Below are positions 12,459-25,906 of a stretch of DNA of 64,000 nt, piece by piece. The first letter of the stretch is position 1. The number at the start of each line of letters is the position of its first letter. A program made the translations under genes and the position numbers. The DNA is taken from positions 7,502,001 to 7,566,000 of the forward strand of contig NZ_CP109496.1 of the NCBI RefSeq assembly GCF_036231355.1, read 5' to 3'. The notes below the pieces were generated by a model. The model was not told where the DNA came from, searched no databases, and saw only the letters and a list, made by a program, of their open reading frames with translations. This DNA comes from Streptomyces sp. NBC_01431 (GTDB lineage: Bacteria > Actinomycetota > Actinomycetes > Streptomycetales > Streptomycetaceae).

Positions 12459-14195
12459 ATGACCGCCGCCCGATCCGGCCCGGCCTTCTCGGTCCACGAC
12501 ATCCCGTTCAGCACGTACGGATCCTGGTTCGACATATCGCCCGTGGTGGCCGAGAACTCGTACGCCGAGGACCTCCACCTCGTCTCGCACCAGAACGGCA
12601 TGCACGCCGTGCTGCGCATGGTCCCCCTGAATGCGACGCGGGGCGACCGCGCCGAGACCCGTATCGAGGCGACACCGGGCCTGCTCAGCTGGGTCGGCGA
12701 AAGCGGGCGCGTCGACCTCGCCTACGAGTCGTCGGACACCGTACGCCTGCGGGGGAGCGGCCTGGGCATCGGCGTCTTCGCCGCCGCGCACGCCCTGACG
12801 CCGTTCAGCGGAACGTACTTCTTCCACGACCCGGCCGCGGACGCGTACGTGTTCACGTCGTACGAGACCGGCCGCCGCTACCGGGTCACCATGGTGTCCG
12901 GCTCCATCGCCGACACGGCCGGAGCCCAGGCGCTCGGCGGCGGCGACCGCGGTCTCACCGTCGTCGCGGAGCCGAACGGTGTCTGGGAGATCGCGATCGA
13001 GGAACTCGACACCGCCCGTACGCCCTACGCGGCCTCGGCGCCCTTCGACGACATCATGGCGTCCGCGCGGCGCGCCTTCGCCGACTTCGTGGACGCGGTG
13101 GCTCCCTGGCGCTCGTCCGCCACCCCGGCCGCCGAACTCGCGGCCTATGTCGTCTGGTCGGCGACCGTACGGCCGGCGGGCCTGGTCGGCCGACACGCCG
13201 TGCTGATGTCCAAGCACTGGATGGACAAGGTCTGGAGCTGGGACCATTGCTTCAACTCCCTTGCCCTGGCGCCCGCTTGTCCCGAACTGGCCCTGGACCA
13301 GTACCACCTCCCCTTCGACCACCAGGACGCCAGCGGCGCCCTGCCCGACTCGGTGACCCACTCCGAAATCCTGTACAACTTCGTCAAACCGCCCATCCAC
13401 GGCTGGGCCTTCGGTCAGCTGCGCCGCCGGTTGCCGACACCGCCGAGCCAGGACGAACTTGCCCAGGTGTACGACCGGCTGGAGCGCTGGACCGACTTCT
13501 GGCTGACCGCGCGAAGAGCCCCGGGCGCCCAACTGCCCCACTACCAGCACGGCAACGACAGCGGCTGGGACAACGCCACCACCTTCGACCCCGAGCGGGT
13601 GATCGTCACCGCCGACCTCGCCGCCTTCCTCGTCCTCCAGCTACACCAACTGGCCTATTTGGCCCGTGAGTTGGACAAGCCGGAGGAGGCGATCCGGTGG
13701 ACTGCGACAGCCGAGGAGACCCAGACGGCCCTGCTCGACCAGCTCTGGACCGGCGACAAGTTCCTCGCCCGGTCGGTCGCCACCGGGGACACCTGGAGCA
13801 GCGCCAGCCTCCTCGATCTGATGCCCATCGTGTTGGGCGAGCACCTGCCCGCCGAGCTCGGCAGCACGCTGGCCGATCGCATCAAAGCCCATCTGACGCC
13901 ATATGGCCTCGCCACCGAACTGACCACGTCATCGCACTACCTCTCCGACGGCTACTGGCGCGGCCCGATCTGGGCCCCCGCCACCGTCCTCGTCGAAGAC
14001 GGTCTGCGCCGCGCAGGACACCACCGGCTGGCGGACGACATCAGCGCCCGCTTCCGCGCCCTGTGCGAAACCCACGGTTTCGCCGAGAACTTCGACGCCC
14101 TCACCGGAACGGGCCTGCGCGACCGCGCCTACACCTGGACGGCGAGCAGCTACCTCCTCCTCGCCGAAGCGCACGCCCAACGCGACACCCGCTGA
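12459..14195 (+). CDS. GH63/GH37-like (alpha/alpha)6 glycosidase, cytoplasmic
   Basis: 578 aa without a signal peptide. The C-terminal 380 residues carry hallmarks of the GH63/GH37 clan: MDKVWSWDHCFNSLALA, FDHQDASGALPDSV, and GNDSGWDNAT with Asp367, the usual acid position, then YWRGPIWAP and a tryptophan-rich end. The N-terminal 220 residues are a beta-sandwich. Enzymes of this type release glucose or mannose from oligosaccharides. Placement at the end of the LacI/ABC unit, 85 bases after the permease, suggests it hydrolyses the imported sugar. The substrate is open; bacterial relatives include alpha-glucosidases and mannosylglycerate hydrolases. Confidence 0.75.
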   Translation: MTAARSGPAFSVHDIPFSTYGSWFDISPVVAENSYAEDLHLVSHQNGMHAVLRMVPLNATRGDRAETRIEATPGLLSWVGESGRVDLAYESSDTVRLRGSGLGIGVFAAAHALTPFSGTYFFHDPAADAYVFTSYETGRRYRVTMVSGSIADTAGAQALGGGDRGLTVVAEPNGVWEIAIEELDTARTPYAASAPFDDIMASARRAFADFVDAVAPWRSSATPAAELAAYVVWSATVRPAGLVGRHAVLMSKHWMDKVWSWDHCFNSLALAPACPELALDQYHLPFDHQDASGALPDSVTHSEILYNFVKPPIHGWAFGQLRRRLPTPPSQDELAQVYDRLERWTDFWLTARRAPGAQLPHYQHGNDSGWDNATTFDPERVIVTADLAAFLVLQLHQLAYLARELDKPEEAIRWTATAEETQTALLDQLWTGDKFLARSVATGDTWSSASLLDLMPIVLGEHLPAELGSTLADRIKAHLTPYGLATELTTSSHYLSDGYWRGPIWAPATVLVEDGLRRAGHHRLADDISARFRALCETHGFAENFDALTGTGLRDRAYTWTASSYLLLAEAHAQRDTR

Positions 14196-14214
14196 CCGTG
14201 TGAGGGGAGGGGCG

Positions 14215-14391
14215 TCAGGCGGTTGTGCAGGGGGGCGCCGTTGAGGCTGAACAGGCGGGGGAGCGAGGTGTTGCCGGTGTGGGTGGCCTGGAATCCGAAG
14301 GAGCTGGCGGCGCCGGGAGCCGACGTTCCGTTGTAGCTGAGGTTTTTCGCGGCGACCTGGCCGGTGGCCGGGGCCAGTGAGGCGTTCCAGC
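14215..14391 (-). pseudogene. C-terminal half of a CBM2 cellulose-binding module, remnant of the GH9 gene
   Basis: Leftward translation gives GWNASLAPATG, QVAAKNLSYNGTS, SFGFQATHTGNTS and FSLNGAP, the second half of a CBM2. The expected ending NGAPCTTA-stop is read only if one C is dropped from the six-base run at 14230-14235; as written the frame continues past the normal stop at 14215. The first half of the module is missing, replaced by the GH3 fragment to the right. It was almost certainly once the cellulose-binding tail of the GH9 enzyme. Confidence 0.8.
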
Positions 14392-14797
14392 CTCGGCTGC
14401 TACGCCTTCCCGGTGCACGTCGGCGGCCAGCACCCGCACGCGCCGCTCGGCATCGAACTCCCCACGCTGGGCGAGGCGTTGAATGCCGAGTTCGCCGGGA
14501 GCAAGGAGTGGTCGGTGCGCGGGGTGGCCGTCGACGGCGACGATGTCGGCGACATCCCGGAAGTGGTCCGTGCCGCTCGGCAGGCCGATGTGGTGGTGCT
14601 GGCCCTCGGTGACCGGGCGGGCCTGTTCGGGCGAGGCGCCAGCGGCGCGGGCTGCGACGTGGAATCGATCGAACTGCCCGGCGTGCAACGGCAGTTGCTC
14701 GGCGCCCGGCTGGACTGCGGCACTCCGGTCGTGGTCACCCTGCTGGCCGGGCGGCCGTACGCGCTGGGGCGCGCGGTGAGCGAGGCTGCGGCGATCC
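14392..14797 (+). pseudogene. GH3 beta-glucosidase fragment inserted in reverse inside the GH9 gene
   Basis: Rightward translation reads [58 protein letters not shown] and [20 protein letters not shown], the C-terminal sandwich domain of GH3 enzymes. There is no start codon, no catalytic Asp domain and no GH3 ending: similarity stops near 14797, where the frame begins to read the GH9 gene backwards. About 406 bp of a foreign GH3 gene therefore sit antisense between the GH9 linker module and its half CBM2. It does not come from the GH3 gene at 40396, which is of a different subfamily. Confidence 0.85.
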
Positions 14798-16931
14798 GCG
14801 GCAACGGCCCCCTCGCCGACCGCACCCCCGGCCCGGCGACCGTGAACGTCGCGCTGCCCGAGACGGCGTCGGCGTCCTGCGCGGCGGACATCGATACCTG
14901 CTGCGCGGTTGCCCAGTTGGCCGGTGTGAACACCAACGTCGCGCCCGTCGTCGCGGCCAGGTCCTCGTCGTCGGAGCTCCGGACCACGGTCACGCCGACG
15001 CTCTGCGCCGGCGCGGCCGAGAGCCGCACCTCGACCGCCGCCGAGCCGCCCTCCGGGATGGCCACCGCCGCCGGTGTCACCCGCACCTCGGGCACCGCCG
15101 GGGGTTTGGGCCGCTCCGCGGCGAAGGCCGCCAGCCATGCCAGCGAGGCGTTCCAGTTGATCGCCACCTCATTGGTGGAGTACGAGCCGATGTCGTCCAC
15201 ATAGCACGCCGCCGGCGCGCAGCCCGGGAGCTTGGCTTTGGCCACCGGATCCTCCAGACCCGCGTTCGGACCGCCCGCGAAGGAACCGGCCGGCGGGTGC
15301 GGCAGCGAGGCGTCGTTCTCGTGCGCCCAGAACCGGTGGTGCTGGTTCTCGGAGTAGCGCTCGCCGTAGCCGGTGACGTAGGAGAGGTCGAGGGCGTTGC
15401 GGCCGAGCAGGTAGTCCATCGATTCCAGAGCGCCGGCGCGGTACTTCTGCCGACCGGTCAGCTCGTAGGCGACGGCCAGAATCATCGCGTTGTTGGCGAC
15501 GGCGCTGTTGGAGCCCCAGACGTAGCCGGTGGCGGGGATCGGCACCGCGTAGCCCTGGCCGGCCATGGTGGCGAGGTAGCCGTCGGCGGCCGAGGTCAGC
15601 AGGCCGCGCACCCGGGCGAGGTCGTCGGCCGGCAGGTCGACGCCGGGGACCGTGGCGAGGGTGATCCGGCCGAGCGTCGCGGTGCCGCCCCACCAGAACC
15701 CGTCGGCCGGTTCGGTGTGATGCGGGGAGGCGGTCACGGCGTTCCGGTACTGCGACTCGCCGGTGGTGGCGAGGAGTTCGGCCGCCGCCCAGTAGAACTC
15801 GTCCGAGACGTCGGCGTCCTCGTACGCGCCGCCGCCGGTGCTGTCGCTCGCCGGGGCGAGTACGTTCGGGTTGGCCTTCGCGGCCGCCCATGCGCGGCGG
15901 GCGGCGTCGAGGCAGCGCGCGGAGAAGGCCGCGTCGTACGGTGCGTACACCCGGGCGCACTGCGCGGCCGTGGCTGCCAGATTGAGCGTGGCCGCGGTGG
16001 ACGGGCTGTGCAACTCGCGTTGTTTGTCGTCGAGTTCCGGGCGGGTCGGAAGTGCGGTCCACTCGGCGTCGTGCACCTTGTGGAAGGCCATTCCGGCCAT
16101 CGGCCTGCCCGCCGGGACCTGCATCCGCAGCAGGGACTCCAGCTCCCAGCGCGCCTCGTCCAGTACGTCCGGTACCCCGTTGCCGCGCTCGGGCACCCGC
16201 AGCGTCGAGTCTCCGAGCGCCGCGTCACCGCCCGAACGCCGGGCACGTTCAAAGGAATTGACGAGCTCCCAGACGGATATGCCACCGTTGACCACGTACT
16301 TGCCCTGGTCGCCCGCGTCGTACCAGCCGCCGTGCACGTCAAGGCGGTAGTCGCACACCCCGGCCTGACAGGGGACGCTGGTGTCCCCCTTGTTCGGTGC
16401 GATGCCCAGGTGCCCGGCGGGCCGGGCGTAGGCGCTGCCCGCCAGGGCGGCGTCGATCGCGATGCCGCTGCGCTGCTGGTAGAAGAACGACATGCTGTCG
16501 GCGCGCAGCCCGTCGTACAGCGACGCGGAGATGTCGAACGGGTGGCTGGTCCGGCCGTCGACGGCCAAGGTGAAGCTGGTGCCGGTGGCGGTGTACGCGC
16601 CGAAGTCGACGAGGTGCGTGGACTGGCCGGACGCCTGGTCGGCGCCGTGCACGGTGGTGGTGCCCGAGGAGACCACCACGCCGGAGGAGTCGCGCAACTG
16701 CCAAGGGAGCGGCTCGGTCGCGGAGCTGACCACGGTGGCTCGCTTGGGGCCGTCGGGGAGGTAGCCGAGCTGGTTGACCCGGACCGGGACGTCGGCGGCC
16801 GCGACGATGGCCGCGTCGGCCGAGTGCGCCGGAAGCGCGGTGGCGGTCAGACCGCCGGTGGCCAGGACGAGGCCGGCGAGCGCGGCGACCGCATGGCGTA
16901 GCACGCCGCGGGCGGGGGTGGCAGGGGGCAC
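14400..16931 (-). CDS. Secreted GH9 endoglucanase with scrambled C-terminus
   Basis: The GTG at 16931 has AGGAAGG upstream. Order: signal peptide (1-40), CelD-type Ig-like domain (about 45-135), GH9 catalytic barrel (about 150-600), then a sandwich module (about 605-700, [20 protein letters not shown]). GH9 signatures are [21 protein letters not shown] and [11 protein letters not shown] with the acid Glu. From about residue 705 the protein is nonsense: it reads a GH3 fragment antisense and ends by chance at 14400, where a CBM2 tail would be expected. The catalytic part is intact, so an active enzyme lacking its binding module is possible. A perfect CebR-type operator lies 45 bases upstream of the start. 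Confidence 0.85.
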
Positions 16932-16975
16932 GGATGGGGCCTTCCTGGGGTGGGGGGCTTGAGGGGGGTGAGGTA

Positions 16976-16989
16976 TGGGAGCGCTCCCA
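16976..16989. promoter_or_regulatory. CebR-type operator TGGGAGCGCTCCCA at the GH9 promoter
   Basis: Perfect 14-bp palindrome identical to the known CebR recognition sequence of Streptomyces cellulase genes. CebR is the cellobiose/cellotriose-responsive LacI-family repressor. It lies just downstream of the putative -10 element, so binding would block GH9 transcription. No cebR gene lies in this window. Confidence 0.9.
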
Positions 16990-16993
16990 ATTC

Positions 16994-17023
16994 ATCAAGC
17001 CAGCCCCGTGTGTTGCGCGTCAA
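16994..17023 (-). promoter_or_regulatory. Putative GH9 promoter
   Basis: On the minus strand TTGACG (17023-17018), an 18-base spacer and CTTGAT (16999-16994), directly upstream of the CebR-type operator. The hexamers are moderate matches; the operator position supports the call. Confidence 0.45.
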
Positions 17024-17037
17024 GACCGCGTCCAGGA

Positions 17038-17084
17038 CCGGCAGTTGACGCCCGTCGGTGGAGGGGGCCGGGGTCAACTGCCGG
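17038..17084 (-). terminator. Hairpin downstream of the GH12 gene
   Basis: Perfect 12-bp stem, CCGGCAGTTGAC (17038-17049) with GTCAACTGCCGG (17073-17084), loop 23 bases, 46 bases after the GH12 stop. No U-tract, as is common in Streptomyces. Confidence 0.6.
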
Positions 17085-17129
17085 GCTCTGCCACGGCTGG
17101 GCGGGCCTTGGCGCTCGCGCGGGGTTGTT

Positions 17130-18245
17130 TCAGGCGGTGCCGCAGGGGGTGCCGTTGAGGCCGAAGCCCGTCGGCTTGGCGAAACCGCCGCCGTAGCTGC
17201 CCTGGAAGCCGAAGGAGACGTGGCCGCCGGGGGAGATCTGCGCGTCGTAGGGCGGGCCGCTTGCCGTGACCGTTCCCGACGACGGGGAGACGTCCGCGTT
17301 CCAGGAGCTGGTGATCCGCTGCCCGGCGGGCAGGCTGAACCCGAGCTTCCAGGAGTCGACAGGGGAGGAAGTGGAGTTGGTGACCGTGACGTCGGCGGTG
17401 AAGCCCCCCTGCCAGGTGTTCGTCGCGTAGGCCACCATGCAGGCCCCGGAGTTGCCGGGGCTGCCGACGGTGTTGACCGTGGAGGAGAACGAGGTCACGG
17501 CGAGGCCGGCGCCGTTTTGCCAGGGCTCGAAGCCCGCCTGAATGCTGGTGAGGTACCAGCTGTTCTGGGCCAGCCCGCGGGAGACGGCCTGGCGGGCGAA
17601 GTCCATGACGTCGAAGCCCCAGTCGGCGATCGCCGATGGTGCGACGAACGTCAGCACGTCGTTGGAGCCGTTGTTGCCGGACCACACCTGCCACTGGCGT
17701 CCGGCCACGGTCGCCGTGCCGACCTGCGAACCCACGGGCTGCACGGGGCCGACCTTGTTGAACCAGATCATGATCTCGGTCCGGTTGACGCCGTCGGTAC
17801 GCGGTGTCGGATCGAGCCAGATGTCGTACGCCGCGTCATACACCGCGTTGCTCACATAGCTGTAGGAGACGCTGGTGGGGGACCCGGCGATGGTGCTGAG
17901 CCGGGCGGGCAGGCTGGTGCCGGGTGAACAGTTGGTGTAGTGGCAGCCGTTGAAGAGGGACGGGTAGGACTTCGGGGCGCCGGTCGTGGGGACCGACCCG
18001 TCGGCCCGGGTGATCCTGAATCCCGAGTCGGTAGTGGTGACGCACTGGGCCTGGCTGGTGCCCCAGCGGTTGTTCTGAACGACGTAACGGCCCTGGACGG
18101 TCGTCGACCCGAACTGTTCGCAGAGGGTGGTGTCGGCCTGTGCCACCGAGGCGGCGGTCAGCAGCGCGGCCAGCGAGATGAGCGCGGTGAGCAACGCGCC
18201 GAACAGGCCTCGCGCGCTACGGGCACGGTGTGGTGACGGTCGCAT
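17130..18245 (-). CDS. Secreted GH12 endo-beta-1,4-glucanase with C-terminal CBM2
   Basis: 371 aa; the ATG at 18245 has AAGAGGA upstream. Signal peptide 1-37 (cleavage near AQA-D). GH12 domain about 39-255 with nucleophile Glu157 in NRTEIMIWF and acid/base Glu240 in GFEPWQNG. The CBM2 at about 268-371 starts with ACMVAYATNTW, keeps exposed Trp residues and ends NGTPCGTA. GH12 enzymes cut cellulose, beta-glucan or xyloglucan internally outside the cell. There is no Ser/Thr-rich linker; a short GSPGNSG joins the domains. It lies 93 bases after the GH6 stop, but a strong hairpin separates them. Confidence 0.93.
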   Translation of the reverse strand: MRPSPHRARSARGLFGALLTALISLAALLTAASVAQADTTLCEQFGSTTVQGRYVVQNNRWGTSQAQCVTTTDSGFRITRADGSVPTTGAPKSYPSLFNGCHYTNCSPGTSLPARLSTIAGSPTSVSYSYVSNAVYDAAYDIWLDPTPRTDGVNRTEIMIWFNKVGPVQPVGSQVGTATVAGRQWQVWSGNNGSNDVLTFVAPSAIADWGFDVMDFARQAVSRGLAQNSWYLTSIQAGFEPWQNGAGLAVTSFSSTVNTVGSPGNSGACMVAYATNTWQGGFTADVTVTNSTSSPVDSWKLGFSLPAGQRITSSWNADVSPSSGTVTASGPPYDAQISPGGHVSFGFQGSYGGGFAKPTGFGLNGTPCGTA

Positions 18246-18289
18246 GTGGATCCTCTTCGAAGGTGGGGGGAGAGCGGGAGCGTCGGAGC

Positions 18290-18325
18290 GCCGGGGCCGG
18301 TTCGCGGGTAGGGACCGGCCCCGGC
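18290..18325 (-). terminator. Hairpin downstream of the GH6 gene
   Basis: Perfect 12-bp stem GCCGGGGCCGGT (18290-18301) with ACCGGCCCCGGC (18314-18325), loop 12 bases, 13 bases beyond the GH6 stop. It separates the GH6 transcript from the GH12 gene. Confidence 0.7.
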
Positions 18326-18338
18326 GGAGCCGGCCGGT

Positions 18339-20051
18339 TTACGGCAGCGGCGGGTAGGCGTTCTGCATCAACTGCTGGAACTGGGCGGAGAACCAGTGCC
18401 CGCCCAGCGGCGCGTTCGGCAGGGCGCCAGAGGGGTTGTTGTTGTTACGGGCGTTGCCGCCGTAGGTGGGGTCACACATCCGGTCGAAGCCCTTGCCCTC
18501 GTCGTTGGGGATGTCCGAGCTGGCTCCGTCCGACTCTCCCGGGGGCTTCACCCACACATAGGCGTCGATCCCGGCGGCCGGTGCGGCGGTGGGCCGTTCA
18601 CCGAGTCCGGCGCCGCTCTGGTTGCACCAGTTGCCGACATGGATGCGCCGGTCGACGCGGCCGCCGTTGACGTAGTTGTCGACGGAGGTCTGCGGGCCGG
18701 GCCCGCTGGGCCGGGCCGAGCCGCCCCAGCCGTCGCGGGACGTGTCGATCAGCATGCCGGTGCCGGAGCTGAAGCCGGCCGCGATCACCTTGTCGCGTAG
18801 CCCCTGGGCATAGGCCTGCTCGTCCGCGTACTGGTTCCAGTCCAGCCACTTGGCCTGGCGCACCGTCTGCCCGTTCACGCTGTCGGTGATCTTGAAGTTC
18901 GGCTCCTTGGCGGGGCCGTAGTTCGCGGTGTTGACGATGAAGCCGGCCACGTCGTTCATGCTCGCGCCGTTGGTGGTGGCGACCTTGGCGAACTCCTGGG
19001 CGGCCGGGCCCAGGTTGGTGTCCCAGCCGAGCCAGCCGTGGTGGCCGGCGTCGAGGTAGTTGTAGACGTTCGGGATGGCGCCGAGCTTGGCCAGCGCGTA
19101 GCTGACGCCCTTCTCGTAGTTGCCGTTGCTCTTCATGGTCACGCAGGCGTCGGTGGTGGTGTTGGTGCCGCCGGCGTTGGTGACCAGGTTGGGCAGTGAG
19201 TCGGGTTCGATCACGGTGGCGATCCTGAGGCCCGCGTAGGCCGGGTCGGCGAGGATCGAGGCGATCGGGTCGATGTACTGGGACTTGTACTTGTCGATGT
19301 CGTTCGGGCCGAGCTCGCCGTTGGAGGCGAGGGCGGCGCAGTCGCGTCCGGGCAGGTCGTAGATGACCAGCTGGACGACCAGGTCGCCGGAACCCTTCTG
19401 CTTCAGAGCCTCGTTCAGGTGGGCGCGCAGACCCATGCCGCCGCTCACGCCGTTGATGGTGGCGATGCGGTCGAGCCAGACGGCTGTGGGCTGGTCGGCT
19501 ACGCGGCTGCCACCCGGTTCGGCGGCGGCCTTCGCCGACCACTCCGGGTTGACATACATCTTGGCACCGGCGTACGGATTGTCGACCCGGCTGCCGCTGC
19601 TGCCGCCGCCGTTGTCGCCACCGCTGCCGCCGTCGTCGACGTTGCAGGTGACGCCGTCGAGTGTGAACGTGCTGGGAATGGCGTTGGTGCCACTGTAGGA
19701 GGCATTGAAGCCGAAGCTCACCGAACCGCCGGTCGCCAGCGCGCCGTTGTAGCTCTCGTTGGCGGCGGTGACCGCGGTGCCGCTCTGGCTGACGTTCGCG
19801 CTCCATCCGCTCGTGACCTGCTGGTTGCCGGCGTAGGACCACTTCACCGCCCAACTTGACTTCGCGGCAGCGTTGTTGGTGACGGTCACGGCGGCGGTGA
19901 AGCCGGTGCCCCACTGGTTCTGCACCTTGTAGTCGACCGTGCAGGGGGTGGTCGTGGCCGCGGCGTCGGCCGATGTGGCGCAGAGCGCGGTCGCGGAGGA
20001 CCCGGCAACCAGCGTCAGGGCAGCGAGCAGCGACATTCTGGTGCGATTCAT
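18339..20051 (-). CDS. Secreted GH6 cellulase with N-terminal CBM2
   Basis: 570 aa from the ATG at 20051, with AGAAGGAAG upstream; the longer frame from 20291 adds an 80-residue unconserved piece. Signal peptide 1-31, CBM2 about 36-136 (PCTVDYKVQNQWGTGF to LDGVTC), Gly/Ser/Asp linker 139-154, GH6 domain 157-570. Signatures are YDLPGRDCAA with the catalytic Asp, TVIEPDSLPN, and WVKPPGESDG near the end. The long surface loops and overall size suit a cellobiohydrolase that works from the non-reducing end, complementing the GH48 enzyme across the intergenic region. Confidence 0.93.
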   Translation of the reverse strand: MNRTRMSLLAALTLVAGSSATALCATSADAAATTTPCTVDYKVQNQWGTGFTAAVTVTNNAAAKSSWAVKWSYAGNQQVTSGWSANVSQSGTAVTAANESYNGALATGGSVSFGFNASYSGTNAIPSTFTLDGVTCNVDDGGSGGDNGGGSSGSRVDNPYAGAKMYVNPEWSAKAAAEPGGSRVADQPTAVWLDRIATINGVSGGMGLRAHLNEALKQKGSGDLVVQLVIYDLPGRDCAALASNGELGPNDIDKYKSQYIDPIASILADPAYAGLRIATVIEPDSLPNLVTNAGGTNTTTDACVTMKSNGNYEKGVSYALAKLGAIPNVYNYLDAGHHGWLGWDTNLGPAAQEFAKVATTNGASMNDVAGFIVNTANYGPAKEPNFKITDSVNGQTVRQAKWLDWNQYADEQAYAQGLRDKVIAAGFSSGTGMLIDTSRDGWGGSARPSGPGPQTSVDNYVNGGRVDRRIHVGNWCNQSGAGLGERPTAAPAAGIDAYVWVKPPGESDGASSDIPNDEGKGFDRMCDPTYGGNARNNNNPSGALPNAPLGGHWFSAQFQQLMQNAYPPLP

Positions 20052-20515
20052 GAGTGTGGACTTCCTTCTGTTTCCGTGGGATCTACGGGGTGACAGCGCG
20101 CAGCGGCCGCGGGGCCCGCTGCCGTGCGCGGTGGGCGTGCGGGCGTGGGCGGCAATCAGGGTCGGCGGGTCGAGCCGGAGGAGGGGAGCCCGTCGGCAGT
20201 CACGGTGGTGCCGCACTGGTGCCACGGCGCGATCCAGCCTTGGGTATCCCGCCGGCCACTCGCGTGAGGCCCCAACTGCCGTGTGTCGCACGGCGGTTGA
20301 TGGACTTCCCAGAAGTCCGGAAGCCGGTGTCCCGCCGGCCGGTGACCGAGCACGCCACCACGGCGGGCGGGGTGACCTTCGCGGCCGTCACCACGGGCAG
20401 GCCAAACCGCCCACGAGCACGAGCGCACCGGGCGGCTAAGAGTAATGAACACGGGGGGTGTCGCATGAGCGACTCCTTGCAGCTTGCCGCGCCGGTAACC
20501 GGCGCGTCGACTGAA

Positions 20516-20529
20516 TGGAACCGCTCCCA
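20516..20529. promoter_or_regulatory. Degenerate CebR-type operator TGGAACCGCTCCCA
   Basis: Matches 12 of 14 bases of the perfect operator at 20659. On the minus strand a TACGTT hexamer lies 15 bases upstream (20549-20544), which suggests it regulates the GH6 gene. It could instead be an auxiliary site for GH48, 143 bp from the main operator. Confidence 0.55.
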
Positions 20530-20630
20530 CTGGTGCGAAGGAACGTAGCGCCCGATGGCGCAAATGCCCAGAGGCGCGTCCTGACTTTGTCTCAATTGAC
20601 CGAGCGAACTCTTTCGACTCTTCAAACGTC

Positions 20631-20659
20631 TTGACCGCACGCGGGGCCGTCCTCACTAT
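20631..20659 (+). promoter_or_regulatory. Probable GH48 promoter
   Basis: TTGACC (20631-20636), a 17-base spacer, CACTAT (20654-20659). The CebR operator begins at the last base of the -10 element, a classic repressor position. Confidence 0.65.
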
Positions 20660-20672
20660 GGGAGCGCTCCCA
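20659..20672. promoter_or_regulatory. CebR-type operator TGGGAGCGCTCCCA at the GH48 promoter
   Basis: Perfect palindrome identical to the one upstream of GH9 (16976-16989). It overlaps the putative transcription start, so cellobiose-type inducers would switch on both genes. Confidence 0.92.
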
Positions 20673-20727
20673 CTGGGTTCAAGGCCTGAATTCTCCCTAG
20701 CCGCAAGCCGCAAGGAGGAACCAGTAC

Positions 20728-23646
20728 ATGGATCCCGGACACAGGCGCAGAGCCGCGCGGCGGTGGTGGACAGCTGCCCTTGCCGCGCTCGCCTTACCCC
20801 TGACGATGCTCGCCTCCGGCACCACCGCCGCGCACGCGGCGGCCGTCCGGTGCAGCGTCGACTACAAGACGAACGACTGGGGTTCCGGCTTCACCGCCGA
20901 CCTCACCATCACCAACCGCGGTACCGACGCCATCGACGGCTGGACCCTGACGTACGCCTACGGTGGTGACCAGAAGCTCACGAACGGCTGGAACGGCACC
21001 TGGTCGCAGTCCGGCCGGACGGTCACCGTCAAGGATGCCGGGTACAACGCGAAGATCGCCGCGGGTGCCGCCGTCTCCACCGGTGCACAGTTCACCTACA
21101 GCGGCACCAACACCGCGCCCAGCAGCTTCACGGTCAACGGCACCACCTGTGCGGGCGCGCACCAGCCGCCCGTCACCGTGCTCACCAGTCCGAGCGTGGG
21201 GGCGACCTACACGCAGGGGGAAGCGATCCCGCTCGCGGCCACCGCGGCGGCCGCCGACGACGCGACGGTCAGCAAGGTGGAGTTCTACGACGACACCACC
21301 CTGCTGGGCACGGACACCAGTCCTCCCTTCACGTTCTCGGCCTCCAACTTGGCCGCCGGCAGTCATTCCCTGCTGGCGAAGGCGTACGACAGTCTTGGTG
21401 CCTCCGCGGAATCGACCCCGGTCGGCATCATGGTCGCCTCGGGTCCCGCGGTCGTGGCATCGCCCACTCAACTCAGCGTCCAGCAAGCCAAGTCGGGGAC
21501 GTTCTCGGTGAAGCTGTCGAAGCAGCCGAGCGCGGACGTGACGGTGAGCGTCGCTCGCACGGACGGCAACGCGGGCCTGTCCGTTTCGAGCGGCTCGTCG
21601 CTCACCTTCACCCCGTCGAACTGGAGCACCGCGCAGCCGGTGACCATCGCGGCGGACTCCTCCGGCACGGGCAGCGCGACCTTCACGGCCTCGGCCGCCG
21701 GCCACAGCAAGGCGGCGGTCACCGTGACGGAGCTGCCGGCGGCCAAGACGTACGACGCCCGCTTCCTGGACCTCTACGGGAAGATCACCAACCCGGCGAA
21801 CGGCTACTTCTCACCCCAGGGCATCCCCTACCACTCGGTCGAGACGCTGATCGTCGAGGCCCCGGACCAGGGCCACGAGACCACGTCGGAGGCCTACAGC
21901 TACCTCATCTGGCTGCAGGCGATGTACGGCAAGGTCACCGGTGACTGGTCGAAATTCAACGGCGCGTGGGCCCTCATGGAGAAGTACATGATCCCCACGC
22001 ACGCGGACCAGCCCTCCAACTCCTCCTACAACGCCTCGAAGCCGGCGACGTACGCACCCGAGGAGGACACCCCGAACGAGTACCCGGCGAAACTGGACAC
22101 GTCGGTGCCGGTGGGATCGGACCCGATCGCGGGCGAGCTGAAGTCCGCGTACGGCACGGACGACGTCTACGGCATGCACTGGCTCCAGGACGTCGACAAC
22201 GTCTACGGCTACGGTGACACGTCCGGCGGCACCTGCGAGGGCGGACCGACGCAGACCGGGCCGTCGTACATCAACACCTTCCAGCGCGGCCCGCAGGAAT
22301 CCGTGTGGGAGACGGTGCCCCAGCCGACCTGCGACGTTTTCAAGTACGGCGGCACCAACGGGTACCTGGACCTGTTCACCGGCGACAACTCCTACGCCAA
22401 GCAGTGGAAGTACACCGACGCCCCGGACGCCGACGCGCGTGCGGTGCAGGCCGCGTACTGGGCGGACGTGTGGGCCAAGGCGCAGGGCAAGGGCGGCGAC
22501 GTCACCGCGACCGTCGGAAAGGCCGCGAAGATGGGCGACTACCTGCGCTACTCGATGTACGACAAGTACTTCAAGAAGGTGGGCAACTGCGTCGGGCCGT
22601 CCACCTGTCCTGCCGGGACCGGGAAGGATTCCTCGCAGTACCTGCTGTCCTGGTACTACGCATGGGGCGGCTCCACCGACACCAGCGGCGGCTGGGCCTG
22701 GCGCATCGGCTCCAGCCACGTGCACGGCGGATACCAGAACCCGCTGGCCGCCTACGCGCTCAGCTCCAACGCCGACCTGAAGCCCAAGTCGGCCACCGGG
22801 GCCGCGGATTGGGGCACTTCACTGACCCGGCAGCTGGAGTTCTACCGCTGGCTGCAGTCGGACGAGGGCGCCATCGCGGGCGGTGCGACCAACAGCTGGG
22901 CGGGCCGCTACGCGGCACCGCCGGCCGGGAAGTCGACGTTCTACGGCATGTACTACGACGAGCAGCCCGTCTACCACGACCCGCCGTCCAACCAGTGGTT
23001 CGGCTTCCAGGCGTGGTCGATGGAGCGCGTCGCCGAGTACTACCAGCAGACCGGGAACGCCAACGCCAAGGCGGTCCTCGACAAGTGGGTCGCGTGGGCG
23101 CTGTCCAAGACCACGATCAACCCGGACGGCACCTACCGGATCCCCGCCACACTCCAGTGGTCGGGTCAGCCCGACACCTGGAACGCCTCAAGTCCCGCTG
23201 CGAACAGCGGACTTCACGTCACCGTCGCCGACTACACCAACGACGTCGGCGTGGCGGCCGCATTCGCCAAGACCCTGACGTACTACGCCGCCAAGTCCGG
23301 TGACACGGCGGCGAAGACGACGGCCAAGGCGCTGCTTGACGGCATGTGGAACAACTACCAGGACGGCCTGGGCATCGCGGTCCCCGAAACCCGCGCCGAC
23401 TACAGCCGCTTCGGCGACACGGTGTACGTGCCGAGCGGCTGGAGCGGCAAGATGCCGAACGGCGACGCGATCAACTCCTCGTCCACCTTCGCCTCGCTGC
23501 GGTCCTTCTACAAGAATGACCCGGCCTGGTCGAAGATCGAGGCGTATCTGGCGGGCGGAGCGGCGCCCTCCTTCACCTATCACCGGTTCTGGGCCCAGGC
23601 GGACATCGCCATGGCCATGGGCTCGTACGCGGAGCTGCTTGAGTAG
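20728..23646 (+). CDS. Secreted GH48 cellobiohydrolase with CBM2 and two sandwich modules
   Basis: 972 aa; the start at 20728 has AAGGAGG upstream. Signal peptide 1-37 (AHA-A). CBM2 about 39-142 ([14 protein letters not shown] to VNGTTC), Ig-like module about 149-235 ([13 protein letters not shown]), a second sandwich about 240-337 ([16 protein letters not shown]) homologous to the linker module of the GH9 protein, then GH48 from about 342 to the end. GH48 motifs include [20 protein letters not shown] with the catalytic Glu, and [12 protein letters not shown]. Actinobacteria usually have one GH48 enzyme, a processive cellulase acting from reducing ends. The domain order resembles other actinomycete GH48 exocellulases. 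Confidence 0.94.
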
Positions 23647-23698
23647 CCCCGCCGAGTACGACGCGCACACGCCCTGTTCGTAGGGCGACGAAGTGACC

Positions 23699-23738
23699 GG
23701 GCCGGGCGGCACCCACCCGCACAGGGGCCGCCCGGCCC
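23699..23738 (+). terminator. Hairpin downstream of GH48
   Basis: Perfect 12-bp stem GGGCCGGGCGGC (23699-23710) with GCCGCCCGGCCC (23727-23738), loop 16 bases, between the converging GH48 and GH42 genes. It could serve both strands. Confidence 0.7.
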
Positions 23739-23787
23739 TCCCGCATGGATGCCGCGCCAGCCGTGCCCGGCCGTCCCTCCCTTCGTC

Positions 23788-25906
23788 TCAACGTGTCACG
23801 AAGACCCGTACGTCCCAGGCCCCCAGGGGGACCGGCCCGCCGGCGGGCACCGCGGTACCGTCCAGTACGTCGGTCAGGTCCACCGGGGCCTGGGCCTCGG
23901 CGGGCTGCCAGCTCCAGTTGTGGACCACGTGGACCCGGCGCCCGTCCGGGGACGTTCCGGTGCTCGCGGTGACGGAGACGGGCAGGTCGCGCCAGCCGCT
24001 CACAGGAACCGAGGAGAGCCAGCCGGTGAGCGCCCGCGCCAGGCCACGTCCGGGGACGGTGCCGACGCACGTCACCCGGCCGGTGCCGTGGGCCCGGGTC
24101 GTGACCGCCGCCCAGCGCCCGAAGTGCGGGTGGTCGTACCCGGCGAGCACCGTGGCGTCGGTGGCGGTGAGGCCCTCCGCCCAACGGGTCGCGGTGGCGT
24201 CGGCCGGCAGCTTCAGCGGGCTGTCGGGGATGGTGCGAACAGGGAGGTCCGAGGGCAGGTTGCTGAACTCGTCGTACCTCGCGCCCGCGGCGGCCGTGAG
24301 GCGCGGCGGGGCGGTCTCGTGGCGAGCTCGGGCCTCGTGGTCGGCGTAACCGGTGCGGGGGCCGAGCACCAGGTGGCCGCCGGCCTCGGCGTAGGCCGCG
24401 AACCAGTCGAGCAGTGAGTCGTCGGCGAGGTACAGCGCGGGGACGACCAGCACGGGGTGGCGCCTGGCGGCGAGTTCGGGCGCGATCCCCTCGCGCTCGC
24501 CCCGGGCGTCGTGCAGCTGGCGGGCGTGGAGGATCCGCGTCTGGCGGCCGGCCTCGAAGGCGCCGCGGTAGAAGGCGTCGAAGACGCGGTGGTAGGACGT
24601 CGGGCCGGGGCTGCCGTCCGCCTTCGCCAGCGGCGGGTACTTCTGCATGAGCCACTTGCTGGGCATCGAGTAGACCATCGCGATGTCGGCGTCGGGCTCG
24701 ATGCCGGCGACGAGTGACCCGGCCGTCTCGAACTCCGCCCCCAGGCATACGAGTTCGGTGTGGATCCGGCCGGGCTTGCCGCTGTGCGGCAGGATGCCGC
24801 CCCCAGTACGTCTCGGTGCCGAAGTGCAGGGTGTGCCAGTGCCAGTACTCGATCATCCGCGCGCCGCGCGAGACGAGGGCCCACGCGGCCTGCCGTCACT
24901 GGCCGTCGAACGCGGGCTGGTTCTCCGAAGTGCCGCTGATGGCCTGGGCGTTGGTCTCGGTGACGAGGAACGGCTCCTGGCGGGAGGAGAAGATCCGGTC
25001 GGCGCTCTGGTACAGCGCCCACACCCCCGTGGTCTTCCACTGCTGCTCGTGGTCCTCGGGCGCGGGGTCGGGCAGCGTCAGGGCGTCCTGCATGTCGTAG
25101 TACGGGTTGCCCGCGGTGACGTCCAGGGCGTCGGTCAGCTCGTCGTCCTCCAACGCGGGATGGTTGTAGGCGAGGCAGGTGGTGACGAACTGGTCGGGGC
25201 GGGCGTACTCGCGCGCGATGGCGGCCTGCCAGGCGACGAACTCGGTGGTCTGGCGCGCCTGGAACGCCCGCCAGGCGACGTCGTACTGCGGCTGCTGGTT
25301 GTTGTCGGGCTGCCACAGGTCGGCCCAGGTGGTGAGCCGGTGCGACCAGTACACGAGGCCCCACTGGCGGTTGAGGGTCTCCACGTCGCCGTACGTCTGC
25401 CGCAGGTGGTCGACGAACCGCTGGAACACACCGCGGTTGTGCAGTAGGCGCAGGCCGGGCTCGTTGTCGACCTGGAAGCCGATGACGGCCGGGTGTCCCG
25501 CGTAGCGGGCGAGGATCGCCCGGGTGACGCGCTCGGCGTGGAAGCGGAAGGCGGGGTGGGAGAAGTCGGCCTCCTGGCGGGCGCCCCAGCCCATGGGCCG
25601 GCCGGTCCCCTGGTCGGTGACGATCTCCGGGTACTGCCGGGCCAGCCACGGCGGCACGGCGTAGGTGGGTGTGCCGAGGACGACCGCGATGCCGCGTTCG
25701 TGGGCGGCGTCGAGCACCGGGGCCAGCCAGTCCAGTTCGAGGTGGCCGTTCTCCGGCTCCCAGGTCGACCACACCGACTCGCCGACCCGGATGACGGTGA
25801 ACTTCGCCTCCGCCATCAGGGCGAGGTCTTCCTTGAGCCGCTCGTACGGCTGGTACTCGTGGTAGTAGGCGGCGCCGAACAGCACGCGCGGGGGCAGCGG
25901 GACCAT
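23788..25906 (-). pseudogene. GH42 beta-galactosidase, broken by one TGA and one frameshift
   Basis: Start ATG at 25906 with AGAGGTG upstream. The first 336 codons give the GH42 barrel from FGAAYYHEYQPYERL, with acid/base Glu in QVDNEPG and nucleophile Glu in FLVTETNAQ. Translation stops at TGA (24898-24896), where the conserved FDGQ-W-RQAAWALVSRG needs TGG. The same frame resumes with RQAAWALVSRGARMIEYWHW, then a five-base run (24800-24804) with one extra base shifts the frame; correcting it restores GILPHSGKPGR and the trimerisation and C-terminal domains to 23788. No signal peptide. Either a real pseudogene or two consensus errors; if intact it would be a cytoplasmic beta-galactosidase. 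Confidence 0.85.

Follow-up and report, generated by a model that had tools for sequence, protein, structure and literature searches.

Organization of the locus

The locus lies in a window of 64,000 nucleotides, which is the whole stretch of DNA that was analysed (Streptomyces sp. NBC_01431, contig NZ_CP109496.1, positions 7,502,001 to 7,566,000). It consists of pieces of three glycoside hydrolase genes, placed side by side between an MGH1-like gene on the left and an operator on the right. Its features are the following (window positions):

12459..14195 (+): MGH1-like glycoside hydrolase gene, left neighbour (Pfam PF22422, E 5.5e-50)
14199..14391 (-): 3′ end of a GH10-CBM2 xylanase gene (C-terminal half of the CBM2), the rest lost (DNA identity to relatives)
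14391..14392: junction 1, about 6.9 kb lost, 0-1 bp shared (comparison with S. violascens and G300)
14392..14796 (+): GH3 remnant of about 405 bp (Pfam PF01915; 87-88% identity to the intact GH3 gene of relatives)
14797..14812: junction 2, about 1.13 kb lost, 16-bp filler (comparison with S. violascens and G300)
14813..16931 (-): GH9 cellulase with CelD_N (PF02927) and GH9 (PF00759), CBM2 lost (Pfam; purifying selection)
16976..16989: CebR-type operator TGGGAGCGCTCCCA, upstream of the GH9 gene (motif as the CebR site in the excerpted text of PMC4898821)

The GH9 reading frame occupies 14400-16931 on the minus strand (843 aa). It is matched by the Pfam GH9 and CelD_N families, and no CBM2 is found in it at E 0.01. 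The catalytic domain is essentially complete (PF00759, E 2.4e-99, profile positions 1-443 of 444), and is followed in the gene by some 100 residues that match no Pfam family. The stretch 14392-14796 on the plus strand matches Glyco_hydro_3_C (E 2.5e-11). For 14199-14391 no Pfam match of its own was found, the 58-residue frame compared with Pfam being another than that of the CBM2; its DNA is 86-87% identical to the 3′ end of a CBM2-bearing gene of relatives. Thus, by Pfam and by DNA identity to relatives, the three pieces described in the sequence-only reading (a GH9 gene without CBM2, some 405 bp of GH3 on the opposite strand, and half a CBM2) are real.

The stretch 14330-14900 was compared with 392 Streptomyces genomes, two first-look candidates being scored in each, and 101 genomes gave matches at E <= 1e-25. 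Among the matches listed, either junction is spanned only by the genome itself, and those of the other genomes all lie within 14391-14797, except for one match of genome G300 that starts at 14813. The boundaries of the pieces are therefore sharp and real, since the listed matches of other genomes stop at 14391 and 14797. Likewise, among 134 compared loci the only ones to span a junction are the genome's own copies. The junctions had first been placed near 14391 and 14797; this is correct to within one base on the GH3 side, but not on the GH9 side, where homology begins only at 14813.

The intact cluster in related strains

In S. violascens and G300 the cluster is intact and consists, in order, of GH10-CBM2 (-), a LacI regulator (-), a binding protein, two permeases and GH3 (all +), and GH9-CBM2 (-). 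In S. violascens JCM 4424 (locus L051), Pfam identifies GH10-CBM2, LacI, a solute-binding protein, two permeases, GH3 with its N, C and Fn3-like domains, and GH9-CBM2. This locus is orthologous to that of the window and has the same order and orientation but, unlike it, is intact. Its collinear blocks correspond to window positions 14198-14391 (86%, precisely 86.1%), 14391-14796 (87%), 14813-17162 (91%) and 17440-24145 (92%). For G300, the three pieces are 87% (87.1%), 88% and 92% identical, and in both relatives the collinearity extends further to the right. A comparison with the orthologous GH9 gene of related strains had been suggested; in S. violascens and G300 this gene carries an intact CBM2. 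The half CBM2 of the window had been regarded as that of GH9 itself; its match to the GH10-CBM2 gene of relatives identifies it instead as the 3′ end of that gene.

A third relative, G168 (taken to be Streptomyces sp. ERV7), has the three pieces together on a single contig, with order and direction unchanged and with identities of 81, 81 and 87%: the GH3 piece follows the end of GH10-CBM2 at 6.9 kb, and GH9 follows 1.06 kb further on. The ERV7 match to GH9 ends inside the gene at 16435-16451, so that its GH9 is seen in part. The ERV7 locus is found on two contigs (L032 1-6069 and L033 5854-11923), which are 99.98% identical over 6,070 bp and then diverge inside GH9; a recent duplication or an assembly fault is possible.

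Viewed alone, the window gives the appearance of a GH9 gene whose tail has been replaced by an inverted GH3 fragment from elsewhere, either by insertion or by gene conversion. This was the original interpretation. In S. violascens, G300 and ERV7, however, GH3 is natively convergent with GH9, so its orientation in the window is ancestral, and the loss of two stretches explains the whole layout. Moreover, the CBM2 half belongs to GH10. A search of the genome for the parent of the fragment found other GH3 genes and no close donor, the best match being 70% over 167 bp, followed by two 41-bp stretches at 85% (40 of 418 candidates scored). Taken together, these observations leave the replacement of the GH9 tail by an inverted fragment with next to no probability. 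The idea of a repair scar in a cellulase cluster holds, whereas gene conversion, as one form of it, does not: GH3 natively stands beside GH9 and a close donor is not found among the candidates scored.

Deletions and repair of the breaks

The arrangement is best interpreted as a deletion scar formed by the collapsed remains of neighbouring genes, a reading to which a probability of about 0.93 is assigned. The ancestor had the gene set that S. violascens and G300 still possess, namely GH10-CBM2 (-), LacI (-), a binding protein (+), two permeases (+), GH3 (+) and GH9-CBM2 (-). Comparison with these relatives shows two losses in the window lineage, one of about 6.9 kb, from the CBM2 of GH10 into the middle of GH3, and one of about 1.13 kb, from GH3 to the sequence preceding the CBM2 of GH9. 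The breaks were probably sealed by nonhomologous end joining. The GH10 and GH3 stubs no longer function and are drifting. GH9, deprived of its cellulose-binding module, appears to have stayed under purifying selection.

At junction 1, the loss amounts to 6,902 bp by comparison with S. violascens and 6,909 bp by comparison with G300, and includes the GH10 catalytic domain and the N-terminal half of its CBM2, LacI, the binding protein, the two permeases and the N-terminal part of GH3. Here CCAGC is joined to CTCGG with 0-1 bp in common. At junction 2, the loss is 1,130 bp (S. violascens) or 1,142 bp (G300) and comprises the GH3 C-terminus, the intergenic stretch and the whole CBM2 of GH9; 16 bp (14797-14812) match neither side. 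The longest word common to both sides of a breakpoint, within 20 bp in the relatives, has 5-6 bases, and with a divergence of 8-14% at the locus short common words could have been erased. Two Ku genes lie over the cut-off in the genome. The near absence of shared sequence, the 16-bp filler and the two Ku genes all point to end joining as the likely mechanism of the scar. As regards the source of the filler, a search for exact words gave two minus-strand matches, neither of them convincing: one of 11 bases near 16177 of the window, and one of 10 bases within the DNA that S. violascens has and the window has lost. By eye, nine filler bases recur inverted beside the GH9-side break in S. violascens and are absent there in G300; this recurrence may be due to chance.

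End joining in S. ambofaciens removes DNA past the break, adds nucleotides and inserts DNA of local origin, and the excerpted text of PMC5869714 reports that these outcomes depend on the NHEJ pathway. The window scar resembles those described there in its deletion, its added nucleotides and the presence of local DNA at the healing site. It differs from them in being natural, apparently old and known by comparison, its repair pathway being deduced from the junctions.

A variant of the deletion reading involves a single event, namely one deletion of 8.4 kb from the CBM2 of GH10 to the stretch before the CBM2 of GH9, with capture of a 405-bp internal piece and 16 bp of filler. The GH3 piece does originate inside the deleted interval, the filler sits at one junction, and according to the same excerpt (PMC5869714) breaks in S. 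ambofaciens are repaired with the capture of 42 or 83 bp of local DNA, and with inserts ranging from 30 bp to 18.8 kb. On the other hand, a captured piece would be expected in native order and orientation only about half of the time, and two ordinary deletions require no capture. The single event is thus a tentative alternative, the less probable of the two. As to the number and order of events, two deletions would fit the scar, and so would a single deletion in which an internal piece was captured.

The scar was not seen in any other strain among 392 genomes of the genus, 296 relatives matching at E <= 1e-80 and 134 compared loci; the 296 relatives overlap the 392-genome draw, the two together represent part of the genus, and the set of loci may omit records that are very close to the genome of the window.

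A translocation was also considered and rejected: when the lost 6.8-kb segment was looked for in the genome itself, the longer matches to it proved to be paralogues of 68-72% identity, and the others measure 35-110 bp (40 of 700 candidates scored).

Decay of the GH3 and GH10 remnants

The GH3 remnant corresponds to residues 589-723 (135 residues) of a 944-residue stop-to-stop frame of S. violascens. Lineage-specific changes were counted at positions where S. violascens and G300 agree, that is, with two relatives and no outgroup. On this basis 28 changes in the remnant are specific to the window (20 non-synonymous, 8 synonymous), against a neutral mean of 19.9 non-synonymous changes (15-24), and they are distributed over the codon positions as 10/10/8. 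The remnant thus appears to be evolving as if neutral. The same stretch in the other lineages has 4/20 (S. violascens) and 6/17 (G300) non-synonymous changes, below the neutral expectation; with the other reference codon these become 6/20 and 7/17, and the window counts are unchanged. Using the latter counts, the difference between the window and both relatives is significant (Fisher p 0.006). Within the window lineage, the contrast between the remnant and GH9 is no more than suggestive (Fisher p 0.073). That the remnant looks neutral throughout the lineage makes an old scar probable.

By sequence, the solved structures closest to the S. violascens GH3 are the beta-xylosidase 7zb3 (E 4.2e-162) and 8c7f (E 5.1e-161). 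For this reason the lost operon was probably devoted to xylo-oligosaccharides. Of such a GH3 beta-xylosidase the window retains only 135 residues, in which the Glu of the TSGEGCD motif has become Ala. This Glu, which we take to be the GH3 acid/base, aligns with Glu in 7zb3 and with Gln in 8c7f, presumably an inactivated variant. None of the 7 PF00933 matches of the genome lies at the locus, so no functional GH3 is found there. In the GH10 stub, one extra G relative to the two relatives shifts its last codons.

These changes also bear on the possibility that the locus is a misassembly of paralogous glycosidase genes. Similar domains do recur in the genome, and the scar is known from assembled sequence alone. 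Yet the assembly has 3 contigs with 100% completeness and 0.03% contamination, and parents of the GH3 piece and of the CBM2 half were not found in the genome, the best match for the latter being 73% over 95 bp (40 of 418 candidates scored). The remnant moreover has a neutral decay of its own, including the loss of the Glu aligned with the acid/base. Lineage-specific neutral decay would not be expected of an assembly chimera. Together with the absence of a close parent among the candidates scored, it makes misassembly, which had been offered as an explanation, scarcely credible.

The GH9 cellulase without its CBM2

In the window lineage, GH9 has 34 non-synonymous changes, compared with a neutral mean of 48.0 (41-55), and its catalytic part has 20, with 33.7 expected. 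The constraint does not differ between the window lineage and the other two (Fisher p 0.38). GH9 seems to be still constrained, or to have been so until lately, and the constraint may partly predate the deletion. A CBM2 lies downstream of GH9 at all 11 of the first listed loci (L051-L061) and at 68 of the 80 loci in total, and in S. violascens and G300, too, the 12-base core of the CebR-type box is found upstream of GH9. The proposal that the CBM2 of GH9 has been lost, with the catalytic domain and the CebR-type box at 16976-16989 retained, is borne out. GH9 is probably a CebR-controlled endoglucanase which is still working, with weaker binding to crystalline cellulose.

The frame of GH9 is open antisense through the GH3 remnant as far as a stop at 14400-14402, which raises the question of whether the enzyme has gained a functional C-terminal tail. 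The tail would have 137 open codons, and its composition is linker-like (67% Ser/Thr/Pro/Ala/Gly). Against this, third-position changes are not in excess (8/28); the third positions of both strands coincide in this register, and constraint is visible on neither. The antisense frame is likewise open in ERV7, where there is no fusion. Since the frame is open without fusion and the remnant bears no sign of constraint, a functional antisense tail would be quite unlikely. A composite hypothesis holds that CBM2s have here been lost repeatedly and preferentially (from GH9 in the window and GH12 in S. violascens), as an adaptation away from crystalline substrates and towards soluble or hemicellulosic ones, and that GH9 is translated with a Ser/Thr/Pro-rich antisense tail. 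As a whole it would be quite unlikely too.

According to Book and co-workers, CBM2 has frequently been lost in Streptomyces: they report, in the portion of PMC4898821 consulted, a mean retention of 27% in clade II versus 79% in clades I and III, which are cellulolytic. Compared with the losses given there, the window offers a single loss defined at base resolution, in which selection on the catalytic partner has been maintained. In titles and the opening lines of abstracts on the CebR motif, Streptomyces NHEJ, CBM2 and GH9, and CBM loss with pseudogenes, nothing was found about this locus.

Erosion of the cluster and its significance

The scar belongs to a known type of gene-loss scar and is clearly readable, CBM2 loss and end-joining scars being both known in Streptomyces. 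It offers a base-level view of the dismantling of a polysaccharide-degradation cluster, in which an operon for a transporter and a probable xylosidase has been cut out, and only the binding module has gone from the cellulase next to it. It also calls for caution, as genes that were convergent neighbours may leave a residue which looks like an inverted insertion.

As judged from the alignments, three sister lineages bear different deletions in one cluster, and this recurrent, lineage-by-lineage erosion is the main point of the present analysis. Such deletions could constitute a small natural series in which adaptive CBM loss may be set against mere erosion.

The loss is probably tolerable. The genome contains a paralogous cluster (C1 7808-7820 kb, approximately 300 kb from the scar) with LacI, a binding protein, two permeases, GH3 and GH9-CBM2, as well as three GH10 matches, one of which has an internal TAA; the function is therefore probably buffered by this second cluster.

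The TAA-bearing GH10 match lies in the paralogous cluster (C1:7815558-7816484; L040 7559-8485). Elsewhere in the genome (C1:5637106-5637755) two GH3 N-domain matches adjoin each other, the first with an internal TGA; a second broken GH3 gene is possible there.

A third boundary is located at 14198/14199, where the homology of the MGH1-like gene ends and the GH10 3′ end starts. Homologues of the MGH1-like gene are present in 76 other genomes of the 392 at E <= 1e-60, and among the matches listed 19 end at query position 1799, which is window position 14198, and one at 1801. To the left of this boundary, S. violascens and G300 carry other DNA, which differs between the two as well.

On the right of the locus, the GH12 gene of S. 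violascens (L051 8773-9774, compared with window 17130-17440) has lost most of its CBM2, and a short end stub is left. The GH12 of the window has its CBM2, and G300 aligns through it too. In G300, a GH6-CBM2 gene (window 18435-20337) is nearly all absent from the orthologous place, where a 3′ stub of about 100 bp is seen.
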